The notes under the pieces: model-generated | The model's database searches: none | Told to the model about the DNA's origin: nothing | The model's input: only the letters and a program-made list of their open reading frames with translations | In this document: positions 1 to 6,222 of the stretch, one piece after another | Layout of the letters: each line of letters opens with the position of its first letter | Numbering within the stretch: the stretch's first letter is position 1 | Position numbers and translations under genes: made by a program | DNA from: Escarpia spicata | Lineage: Eukaryota; Annelida; Polychaeta; Sabellida; Siboglinidae | DNA: 64,000 bases | NCBI GenBank assembly: GCA_963995525.1 | Contig: OZ023209.1 | Location: 11,148,152 to 11,212,151 of the forward strand | Direction of reading: 5' to 3'

Positions 1-173
1 TCATAGGTTTAATCATAGGATAATTTGCAATAAAAGTTCCATTGACCATTAGGCATCAGAAAATTGCAATAATTGGTGTTGCAAGAATGTAGCTACAAAA
101 GAGAAGCAGGCAAATTCCTTGCCTTGGATGTTTTTTATATTGTTGTTTTGTAGATCATGATAACGGGGTGCTC

Positions 174-680
174 TCGTTCTCTCTCTCTCTCTCTCTCTCT
201 CTCTCTCTCTCTCTCTCTCTCTCTCTCTCTCTCTCTCTCTCTCTCTCTCTCTCTCTCTCTCTCTCTCTCTCTCTCTCTCTCTCTCTCTCTCTCTCTCTCT
301 CTCTCTCTCTCTCTCTCTCTCTCTCTCTCTCTCTCTCTCTCTCTCTTCTCTCTCTCTCTCTCTCTCTCTCTCTCTCTCTCTCTCTCTCTCTCTCTCTCTC
401 TCTCTCTCTCTCTCTCTCTCTCTCTCTCTCTCTCTCTCTCTCTCTCTGTCTGTCTGTCTGTCTGTCTGTCTGTCTGTCTGTCTGTCTGTCTGTCTGTCTG
501 TCTGTCTGTCTGTCTGTATCTCTCTCTCCCCCCTCTCTCTCTTTCTACTTTTTCTCTCTCTCTTTCTTCCCTCTCTCTATATATATCTCTCTCTATTACT
601 CTCTCTCTCTGTCTTTTCTCTGTCTCTCTTTCTTCTCTCTCTCTATCTTTCTCTCTCCTCCCCCCCCCCCCCCTCTCTCT
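174..680. repeat. Pyrimidine microsatellite, (CT)n then (TGTC)n and C-run
   Basis: An almost uninterrupted CT dinucleotide tract runs to about 446. It is followed by a TGTC tetranucleotide tract to about 516 and impure pyrimidine sequence ending in a run of 14 C at 660-673. Long open frames of alternating Leu-Ser over it are artefacts. It occupies the same place in the left arm as the GA tract at 5571-6042 in the right arm. Confidence 0.97.
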
Positions 681-744
681 GTATAATGTTATCCGTAAGC
701 ATGTACGCTTGGTGGTTTTCGATTTGAAAGTGTCTTTTCATACA

Positions 745-2525
745 CTTGGAATTTGTTTATCATTTCAAGCGACACGATCGGCCGTGTCTGTCGAAATGTT
801 GGATTAGGTACACTGATGTGTCTCGCTATGTGTGGAACATGTTAGGATATAACACAAATATGTTCGACATAATCAAGACATGAATGAAGAGTCACAATAC
901 AAGATTCAAGATCAGTGAATACATAAAAATAATATACATATGTATTACATTTACGAAATTATGAAGAAGGCTTACAACTACGTATGACTGGTTGGGTATA
1001 TTTACCTCTCAAGAAAGTGTTTTTTTTTCTCTGTATAATTTCGACCACCTCTCGCGGCCTTCTTCAGCAGACTGAATTTACGGTCGTGTAACATGAATAA
1101 CCATGAATACATAGGGGAAACAGGTAGAGCATTTGGTGTAAGAATGAGAGAACATCTATCATGTCGCCAACCCCTATCAGACATAAGTGAACAAAAACTG
1201 AACACAGGCTATCAGTGTTTATTGAAAGACGTCACCATTTTAGACCACGAGCAGAACTGGCACCGAAGAAAGATAAAGGAAGCAACTGACATCTACAGAG
1301 GAAAACCTACACTGAATCGCGACGTCGGCCAGGCGCTTCCAACAGTCCTTCTCCAGCTTGTGTCACATGACAGTGGTCATGTGAGACACTCGTATCGTCA
1401 TTCTTCCAATGCAAACTGCGAGAAGCAGTCGAAATATTTAAAAGAAGAGAAACAAGTTTCTTATGAGGTAATTATGTCATATTATGAAATGTCATGAGAT
1501 GACACATAAAAACGCGTTGTTGGGTCCAGCGGACGAATTGTCCGCAATACCGGAATGTGCCAAAAACAGTTTGTTTTTTGGTAATGAAATCATCGTCAAC
1601 TCATAGACGTCAGGGAGAGACAGCGCAGTGTTGTATCGCCCAGGGAGAATGGTTCCTGTAACAACTACAGCCCCCCCATATTGGAAGCGATATCGAGTGT
1701 TGTTTAAAAAAAGATGGGTAGCCACCATTCTAGTTTCTATTTTTAGTAACATGTGACTACATGAGATATGAATACATGAATATTTACAAAAAAAAACGTA
1801 TTTTTTCATTAGAAGTTGTTTCAACAACATCCACGTACGCCTTGTTTGTTGGTAGCAAAATTGAGAACGTAATCACGGAAATGATTCGATAGCGAAATAA
1901 GATTAGCCCACCATATTTAGGGAAGGTGTGCATTTTTTATGCAATTTGATGTTTTTGGTGAGCCTGAAGGTGTTTTATTTGGCGAGTGCCAAGGGGTTGA
2001 GAATGGAGGTTTTCGGAAGGCCTCAAGGTGGGTTTTTTGGCGAGTCTCGAGGAGGTTCAGTTGGAGGATTGTGGTGAACGTCAACAGATTTGAACGTCGC
2101 CGTACACAATATTCAACAGCACACGCACATCACCGTCATACGATGTCATCATCCGTCAGCGGAGTGGAACTGAAGCTTCAGCTCAGCCCATCTATTATTA
2201 ATTTCGTTCCGGTATACAACACGGATAATAGTTTTTTATATATATTCTAGGTGAAAGATTGTCGTACCCCGTTTTAACATGGGTTTAGTTAAAAATACAA
2301 ACACCCAAACAAAGTATGAATTTGTTGTATTTTAAACAAACGTACAACTTTGAACATTCTGATAAATTATATATTCGATTTACAAATCGTTAGTGACATA
2401 AAAGCAAAATAATTGTGAACAATGTTATACCAGTCATATTTCTAACAAAACGAAGCGGATTCTGTGTCTATTATTTAGTAACCATTGAACACGTGACCGG
2501 AATAAGAATACTGCAGGATGACTGA
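745..2525. other. Unmatched block interrupting the left palindrome arm
   Basis: Sequence before about 745 and after about 2525 is contiguous in the other arm (5480-5510), but the roughly 1.8 kb between has no counterpart there. It contains the Penelope-like endonuclease ORF at 1093-1497 and otherwise AT-rich sequence without a recognisable gene. A short run at 1950-2065 has loosely repeated TTTGG-GAG-type units of about 22 bp. I did not find clear target-site duplications at the two edges. Confidence 0.6.
1093..1497 (+). pseudogene. Penelope-like element GIY-YIG endonuclease fragment
   Basis: The 134-aa frame opens with a YIGETGRAFGVRMREH motif. This is the YIG half of the GIY-YIG nuclease fold, followed by the conserved Arg and Glu-His. 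It continues through a WHRRKIKEATDIYRG segment carrying the candidate catalytic Glu and a TLNRDVG segment carrying the conserved Asn. That order is typical of the C-terminal endonuclease of endonuclease-bearing Penelope-like retroelements. In the family this domain nicks target DNA and lies downstream of a reverse transcriptase. No reverse transcriptase is visible upstream, and the first half of the fold (the GIY strand and usual Cys-rich linker) is missing because the frame begins abruptly. It is therefore a truncated remnant. The stop is TGA at 1495-1497. The ATG is probably internal rather than an authentic start. Confidence 0.7.
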
Positions 2526-3290
2526 ATTCATACAGAATTTGTAGTCAAAAATACAGATTTCAACAAAGAATATGTTTAAGAACTGTTATTGATGAACCGT
2601 ACACGAACTCATTCGCCGTGAAGAATGAACAGCTCGGATAGGAAGTAATTCATTTATGTTCAGCTGGCGGGCTTTCTTTATGCTGATTCATTATTCATTG
2701 AATCATAATCGATTGTTGAAATACTGTTCGTAATTTCGTATGCAAAATGCAAGACTTATTCATTCAAGCGGAAGCGTACGGGATTAGAAATGATAAATGT
2801 TTAGTACTTTATTATTTATGACAGATCGCAGCATAAGCCCAATATATAGCTTCAGTAGCAATATGCTAACGACGTCCAATATAATGCAAAATCCACAATA
2901 GCGGGAGATACCTTCTCAAAATCGTTAGCATTTTATTCATCAACTCAGAATTTGGAAAGTAAGTAATATGTTCCCTTCCGCATTATAGTGGACTCTGAAC
3001 TCAAAAGTGGTGACATCTGTTGTACAAAATATAACACGGTGCGCCATCTGGTGTTCAGTACAAGAACCGTGGATTTCTATAAAAATCTATGTAAATCAAA
3101 GAATTTTACTTCCAGCAACAGTGGTAAGATTGTTTATTATGTTTAACGTTGTGACATATTAATGGATTTAGTGATTGTGTTCAAGCAATACCGTGAGCAT
3201 ACGTTATTTCGCTTCTTCATTTAACAATGGAAATGCCCATCACTCCTGCCACCGCAAAGCATGTTGCATAATTATACTAACTCTCTAAGC

Positions 3291-4229: not shown

Positions 4230-4420
4230 TACACACGCACGCACGCACGCACGCACGCACCCACTCGCACACAAACAAAAACGCACGCATGCACATGTAT
4301 GCACGCACAAACATACACGCACGCACATATGCACACACACGCACACACGCGCATACGCACACACACGCACATACGCACACACATAACAACAACGACAACA
4401 ACAACACACACACACAGACA
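4230..4420. repeat. (CA)n / (CGCA)n microsatellite in right arm
   Basis: Alternating CA with frequent CG, plus an AACAAC interruption near 4385-4405. It is the inverted counterpart of 3291-3534, flanked on both sides by the same unique sequence in reverse order. Confidence 0.95.
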
Positions 4421-5570
4421 GCTTAGAGAGTTAGTATAATTATGCAACATGCTTTGCGGTGGCAGGAGTGATGGGCATTTCCATTGTTAAATAAAGAAGC
4501 GAAATAACGTGTGCTCACGGTATTGCTTGAAAACAAATTTAAATGCATTAATATGTCACAAAGTTGAATATAATAAACAATTTTACTACTACTGCTGCAA
4601 TTAAAATTCTTTGATTTGCACCCATTTTTATAGAAATGCGCGGTTCTTTTAATGAACAGCAGATGGCGCACCGTGTGATATTTTGTACAACAGCTGTCAT
4701 CACGTTTGAGTTCAGAGTCCACTATAATACAGAAGGGAACATATCGGTTACTTAGTTTTCAAATTCTGGGTAGATGAATAAAATAATAGATATTTTGAAA
4801 GGTAAATCCTTTAAAGAATATATTCCTCCCTAGAACATTTTGAACAGGGAATTTGACACATTTGAGGAAAATGACAGTTAAGATCATCAGGCGGTTAACT
4901 TTCTGGTGGTTAGCTGACAGTCTATCACGTACGCACCCAAGCATGCACCCACGAACACACTTAATATTGTTGTTTAAATTTGTACCCGTGAGTATTGTTT
5001 CACATAGCCACGTGTCTCAACTTGGGTGTCTTGGACACATTTAAATGTCGGGTGTAATGATGACATCACGGCCAATTGTTACTACTCAAATTGATTTTTT
5101 TTCAGTCTCAACGACATTGGAAGGGTACACGTTGATGTTTAATATAGGCTATTTTTATGTGAACGTTGTGGATCTTTCATTGGACGTCGTTAGCATCTTG
5201 CTATTGAAACTATATCGTGGGCACATACTGCGATCTGTCATAAATCATAATGTGCTAAACCATTACTCATTTCGAATCCCGTTCGCTTCCGCTTAAATGA
5301 ATAAGTCTAAACTTGTGCAAAATCGATTATGAATCAACGAATAATGAATCAGCATAAAGAAAGCCCGCCAGCTGAACATAAATGAATTACTTCCTTTTCG
5401 AGCTGTTCATTCCTCACGGCGAATGACTTCGCGCACGGTTCATCAATAACAGTCCTGACACATATTCGTTGTTGAAATCTGTATTTTTAATTATAAATGT
5501 ATGAATTATGTATGAAACCGACAAGCGACGAGCGACAAGCGACCATGCTTACGGAAGCATTGTACAGACA

Positions 5571-6042
5571 CAGAGAGAGAGAGAGAGAGAGAGAGAGAGA
5601 GAGAGAAGAGAGAGAGAGAGAGAGAGAGAGAGAGAGAGAGAGAGAGAGAGAGAGAGAGAGAGAGAGAGAGAGAGAGAGAGAGAGAGAGAGAGAGAGAGAG
5701 AGAGAGAGAGAGAGAGAGAGAGAGAGAGAGAGAGAGAGAGAGAGAGAGAGAGAGAGAGAGAGAGAGAGAGAGAGAGAGAGAGAGAGAGAGAGAGAGAGAG
5801 AGAGAGAGAGAGAGAGAGAGAGAGAGAGAGAGAGAGAGAGAGAGAGAGAGAGAGAGAGAGAGAGAGAGAGAGAGAGAGAGAGAGGAGAGAGAGAGAGAGA
5901 GAGAGAGAGAGAGAGAGAGAGAGAGAGAGAGAGAGAGAGAGAGAGAGAGAGAGAGAGAGAGAGAGAGAGAGAGAGAGAGAGAGAGAGAGAGAGAGAGAGA
6001 GAGAGAGAGAGACAGACAGACAGACAGACAGACAGACAGACA
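5571..6042. repeat. (GA)n then (CAGA)n microsatellite in right arm
   Basis: About 440 bp of almost pure GA, with single-base interruptions near 5607 and 5884, followed by CAGA tetranucleotides from 6012. It is the inverted counterpart of the left-arm CT/TGTC tract. The order of the two units is mirrored exactly, so both tracts predate or accompanied the inverted duplication. Confidence 0.97.
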
Positions 6043-6222
6043 CAATGACAGAGAGAACGAGAGCACCCCCAGCATGATCTACAAAACAACAAATATCCAA
6101 GGCAAGGAATTTGCCTGCTTCTCTTTTGTAGCTACACTGTTGCAACACCAAGTATTGCAATTTTCTGATGCATAATGGTCAATGGAACTTTAATTCAAAA
6201 TTAGCCTATGATTAAACCTATG

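Follow-up and report, generated by a model that had tools for sequence, protein, structure and literature searches.

We analyzed a window of 64,000 nucleotides from the tubeworm Escarpia spicata (assembly GCA_963995525.1, contig OZ023209.1, positions 11,148,152 to 11,212,151 of the forward strand), which opens with a long, imperfect palindrome. A self-comparison of the window with tandem repeats masked yielded four inverted block pairs in collinear mirror order about an axis at positions 3842-3849: 1-177 with 6223-6057 (225 bits), 2525-2898 with 5507-5166 (361 bits), 2909-3290 with 4804-4421 (481 bits), and 3531-3737 with 4233-4026 (161 bits). The best minus-strand self-match in 20 Markov shuffles of masked positions 1-6223 scored only 23.8-39.2 bits. 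A first-pass annotation, made from the letters alone, had described a foldback palindrome at 1-6222 and had named the failure to find inverted homology around the axis as the result that would overturn it; that homology extends across 2525-3737 and 5507-4026.

Anatomy of the palindrome

The left arm (1-3841, plus strand) breaks off at base 1, where 5000 N directly precede the window, and the right arm (3850-6223, minus strand) is followed here to position 6223, which is the partner of base 1 and no demonstrated arm end. The arms meet at an 8-nt loop (3842-3849) that forms the axis. The hairpin that had been proposed at this point is well supported, with a DNA folding energy of -36.8 kcal/mol against -16.4 +/- 2.8 kcal/mol for 200 shuffles (z -7.3), and the axis lies within an imperfect self-inverted stretch of 42 bp (3825-3866, 76%). 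Mirror-order homology therefore stands as described and reaches one base further on the right, but the arms are unequal: the left one has 3841 bases, about 1.8 kb of them without a partner, and the right one 2374, of which about 360 lack one.

Aligned arm to arm, the palindrome consists of six blocks, given here by their plus-strand position in the left arm. From the outside inward these are an outer block, 1-166 (partner 6064-6223; 91.8% of 158 columns identical); a short block, 684-727 (partner 5513-5567; 81.4% of 43 columns); two longer blocks, 2522-2892 (partner 5166-5502; 87.7% of 334 columns) and 2909-3290 (partner 4421-4804; 90.2% of 378 columns); a block at 3534-3785 (partner 3978-4232; 91.9% of 246 columns), which includes an old degenerate dispersed repeat within 3641-3785; and the most diverged block, 3792-3841, adjoining the axis (partner 3850-3925; 80% of 50 columns). 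Over all six blocks, and leaving out the private sequences, the microsatellites and the few bases between blocks, 1080 of 1209 columns are identical (89.3%), with 57 transitions, 72 transversions and a Kimura two-parameter distance (K2P) of 0.115. The right arm has its own private sequence of about 360 bases (4805-5165, minus strand) and is the only arm in which a 49-bp unit stands twice (3922-4025, plus strand). It had been expected that the palindrome would extrude as a very large cruciform. Full extrusion is unlikely because the arms differ by 11% and the private sequences would leave unpaired loops of 1.8 and 0.36 kb.

CT, TGTC and TG-rich arrays are common to both arms. The TG/GTGC microsatellite at 3291-3533 (plus strand) has its partner at 4233-4420. 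The outer arrays were thought to be mirrored, with the order of their units reversed, and here the presence of the arrays in both arms is upheld but not their order: read inward, the left arm has CT, TGTC x17 and degenerate CT (167-683, plus strand), whereas the right arm has TGTC x8 and then CT (5567-6063, minus strand).

The sequence TCATAGG-TTTAA-TCATAGG was reported as the terminus of each arm. It does occur once per arm, and allowing for up to three mismatches the window has no other copy. However, base 1 directly abuts the 5000 N, which most likely represent an assembly gap, so the supposed termini are a cut, and position 6223 is merely the partner of base 1. The 6000 bases to the right of the window contain no N. 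The locus shows that sequence bordering a run of N may be mistaken for the ends of a transposon, and that a foldback element can be mimicked by an old inverted duplication.

The left-arm private sequence (728-2521, plus strand) spans about 1.8 kb, with uncertain edges. It is surrounded by a direct repeat of 16 bp with a 4-bp gap (737-756 and 2527-2542), for which an equal or higher score was found in 2 of 5000 shuffled pairs and in 14 of 4967 random window pairs. The repeat may be a target-site duplication of the insert; however, TTCATACA is doubled in the right arm as well, and so the repeat may predate the insert. Since only one arm has the insert, its arrival postdates the duplication, or else the other arm has lost it.

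Within the insert lies the broken C-terminal part of a GIY-YIG-type endonuclease (1105-1389, plus strand), in which the YIG half is kept and the preceding CPECDQ stretch is lost. Its translation retrieved 12 proteins at E <= 0.001 from 25 candidates, the best being P0001 (72% identical over 66% of the query). There was no Pfam match in the remnant's own frame. When five of its relatives were scanned, two matched GIY-YIG: P0011 with 25.3 bits (cut-off 22.6) and P0001 with 17.5 bits, under the cut-off. From the form of these relatives and the general features of such elements, a Penelope-like element is the probable source of the remnant. Penelope-like elements with a GIY-YIG endonuclease would have this C-terminal part in common with the insert, but the remnant is truncated, broken and restricted to one arm, and for this last reason it did not make the palindrome. 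Also in the insert, the minus-strand sequence CTGAAGAAGGCC...GGTCGAAAT (1038-1067) resembles a degenerate hammerhead-ribozyme core; Rfam gave no hammerhead match in 1-7300 up to an E-value of 3.

Copy number of the arm sequences

The genome of the species itself (1,060,511,957 bases in 1097 contigs) was searched with pieces of the arms at E <= 0.001. The search skips very common words, and so its counts are lower bounds and the lack of a match does not prove rarity. The outer block, 1-166, has two matches, which are the two arms. The segment 2530-3280 has 11, of which three are the arms themselves (the right arm in two pieces) and the other eight are matches of 35-47 bp to its first 48 bases; beyond those bases, 2578-3280 has no match besides the two arms. 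The segment 3534-3841 has 24 matches, three in the arms and 21 partial ones elsewhere (32-142 bp), all of them inside positions 108-252 of the query. The private sequence of the right arm, searched as 4780-5190, matches only itself. As positive controls, the flank 6224-7360 gave at least 43 matches including itself (40 of 299 candidates scored) and 9650-10000 gave at least 40 including itself (40 of 410 candidates scored).

The idea of a foldback element family, which had been put forward for this palindrome together with a genome search to look for it, is therefore not borne out: the search found no arm-length copies of the arm blocks besides the two arms, against the high counts of the controls. 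The arm DNA looks local and low-copy, with old dispersed bits, and in this it resembles a duplicated piece of chromosome rather than a mobile family. Exact-pattern scans, two each of the collections viral_contigs and genome_contigs, returned no copies, a result that says little about tubeworms because these collections consist of viral and prokaryote sequence.

One of the dispersed bits is a motif of about 46 bp at 2530-2577 (plus strand), with its counterpart in the right arm at about 5460-5506 and eight further places in the genome. The motif, approximately ATACAGAATTTCAAGTCAAAAATACAGATTTCAAC, is common to five genome loci (L004-L008), most pairs of which align over 46-67 bp only; longer sharing is limited to the pairs L006-L007, L006-L008 and L005-L008. 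Another is the degenerate repeat within 3641-3785: 10 of the 21 partial matches of 3534-3841 outside the arms sit in a tandem array elsewhere in the genome (C8:2603033-2603756), which has a period of about 71 bp and matches 32 arm bases (positions 183-214 of the query).

Origin of the palindrome

We consider it quite probable that the palindrome is an old head-to-head inverted duplication, since decayed, of mostly low-copy chromosomal DNA, an origin that the first-pass annotation had offered as its alternative. The mirror-image arms, the tight axis, the high divergence, the private sequences and the finding of no arm-length copy elsewhere all fit with it. Most probably the palindrome is the product of an ordinary chromosomal accident rather than a new mobile element. 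K2P values are similar among the four long blocks (0.087, 0.134, 0.105 and 0.086), in line with a single event, from which we infer that the copy was made at one time.

The anatomy points to foldback priming as the likely route. In such a scenario a resected 3' end would have annealed to itself at a short inverted repeat, leaving a loop of a few nucleotides; synthesis from the annealed end would have made an inverted copy of the flank, and the product would have been resolved in a second event. The tract copied head-to-head about the short inverted repeat to form the palindrome would have measured 2.4 kb or more, most of it low-copy chromosomal DNA. Later decay would have brought substitutions, insertions and deletions, the gain of about 1.8 kb by the left arm, and a difference of about 360 bases, gained by one arm or lost from the other. 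Foldback priming is plausible here since the arms are local chromosomal sequence in mirror order and the axis is a short inverted repeat whose halves stand only a few nucleotides apart, separated by the 8-nt loop; the priming repeat itself is indistinguishable from the arms.

According to a review (PMC7999016), inverted repeats of 5-9 bp with spacers of 3-12 bp are able to initiate large palindromic duplications when yeast is repair-deficient, and in a yeast study (PMC10622511) inverted duplications were induced by breaking the DNA close to an imperfect repeat of 11 bp whose spacer measures 6 bp. The tubeworm palindrome shares with the foldback-primed duplications described there for yeast lacking Mre11 or Sae2 the head-to-head arrangement, the short inverted repeat, the spacer of a few nucleotides and the probable origin in host sequence. 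It differs from the yeast duplications in those accounts in being old and decayed and in showing neither an outer junction nor a secondary rearrangement, and its mechanism is read from the anatomy. The kind of structure is already known, and the literature consulted gave no description of this locus. If long reads and a sister species confirm it, the locus would be a datable natural palindrome that shows the pace of arm decay or conversion in an animal genome.

Several observations weigh against a simple history of duplication and decay, in addition to the lower-bound nature of the genome counts. Divergence is clearly higher in the two short blocks than in the long ones, with a K2P of 0.214 for the 43 columns beside the microsatellite and 0.234 for the 50 columns at the axis. 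There is some clustering of the mismatches (dispersion 1.56 compared with a null mean of 0.86, p 0.0045 in 2000 permutations), and the longest identical run is 73 columns (p 0.03). This clustering, unexpected under simple decay, could reflect arm-to-arm gene conversion or uneven constraint. The outer ends fall in the run of N, which puts the full length and the outer junction out of view. Because the 5000 N adjoin base 1, the palindrome probably also lies at a contig end, where misjoins gather.

The last point bears on the possibility of an assembly artefact, in which the axis would be a false join at a contig end, made either between two diverged copies (paralogous or allelic) or by a long read folded back on itself. 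The imperfect self-inverted stretch of 42 bp at the axis (76%) could act as a false overlap. However, the six aligned blocks contain 129 substitutions against 25 gap events, and none of the seven single-base gaps is in a homopolymer, which is unlike raw-read errors. A folded-back read would duplicate one sequence, whereas about 1.8 kb of the left arm and 0.36 kb of the right arm have no counterpart. Two haplotypes joined head to head, which had been named as a finding that would undo the palindrome, fit badly as well, because the difference between allelic copies is expected to be close to the heterozygosity. The arms differ by 11.5% (K2P), 10 to 18 times the heterozygosity given for two tubeworms other than the host, 0.63% in Paraescarpia echinospica and 1.2% in Ridgeia piscesae. 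Two diverged paralogues could have been misjoined at a contig end, given that the palindrome borders the run of N, but no further arm-length copy was found in the assembly. Taken as a whole we regard an artefact as unlikely.

A foldback-type non-autonomous DNA transposon, mobilized by a transposase in trans and surviving as a single copy, appears improbable. Such an element would have a small or variable middle flanked by long inverted repeats, as seen here, and the long inverted arms, internal tandem repeats and absence of coding capacity are similar to Tetris (PMC4079207) and Galileo (PMC3573991), which are described as having long inverted repeats with tandem repeats inside them and hardly any or no coding sequence. 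In contrast to Tetris and Galileo as described in those sources, the palindrome has no arm-length copies elsewhere in the genome search and no observed ends or target-site duplication. The tandem units of Tetris are given as about 220 bp, whereas the tandem repeats of the palindrome are simple microsatellites. Multiple dispersed copies would be expected of a transposon, but the genome search found the outer and middle arm blocks nowhere else; neither a terminus nor a target-site duplication is visible, the left end lying in the run of N; and nine frames from the arms and the insert gave no Pfam match at the cut-off. A search for homologues of the 111-residue frame in the arm at 4423-4758 gave no candidate.

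It is formally conceivable, with a similarly low probability, that the palindrome is much longer than 6.2 kb and that its arms are alike in patches through arm-to-arm gene conversion. On the far side of the run of N, the 258 bases adjoining it (-5257 to -5000) match 9715-9940 in inverted orientation at 72%, collinear with a larger palindrome, of which 9715-9940 would be an outer part; the whole would then nominally span about 15 kb, the N included. This is the best match of the query 9650-10000 other than itself, among the 40 candidates scored out of 410. No homology runs further outward from the block, and other inverted matches across the N (at 8623-8676 and at 10596-10911) are not collinear. 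Pieces of the query are also dispersed: 36 of the 40 scored matches cover roughly its positions 1-119, and 2 of the 40 cover 122-266. With identity well below that of the arms, no outward continuation and dispersed pieces, we do not count the block as part of an arm.

A long-hairpin RNA locus, transcribed and diced to endogenous small interfering RNAs with selection on pairing, is highly improbable, since, even though folding the palindrome as one RNA predicts 2441 pairs, 1735 of them between the arms, G:U-type transitions are not in excess over A:C-type transitions for a plus-strand transcript (30 compared with 27, p 0.79) and each arm has a long stretch (about 1.8 and 0.36 kb) that the other lacks. 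No function for the palindrome is indicated.

Other features of the window

Rfam at gathering score gave no match in the window. A permissive search produced 11 matches in 1-7300 to microRNA, snoRNA and scaRNA models, all below the gathering scores and located on the hairpin and the TG-rich arrays, and these were rejected.

Outside the palindrome, a non-LTR-type retroelement at 34411-36567 (plus strand) has a long open frame with a reverse transcriptase domain (Pfam RVT_1). Partial relatives occur in both orientations, at 15149-18247 (minus strand), at 54243-54850 (plus strand) and to the left of the window. An intronless gene resembling an FMRFamide receptor lies at 58431-59624 (minus strand). 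Its best named match among 99 proteins is a Lamellibrachia satsuma protein, 95% identical over 76% of the query; the top match by E-value is 78% identical over 95%. The gene thus points to a vestimentiferan tubeworm as the most likely host. The frame of 229 amino acids at 24634-25323 (plus strand) matches Pfam Herpes_teg_N over residues 145-206, an odd domain here, with 27 bits against a cut-off of 25. A near-perfect 18-bp minisatellite, CATAATGTATACATTACA, is present at 57518-57793 in 15.3 copies (99%) and has the self-complementary core TGTATACA. A 33-bp tandem repeat occupies 63780-64000 up to the end of the window, and similar units are found at the start of the right flank.

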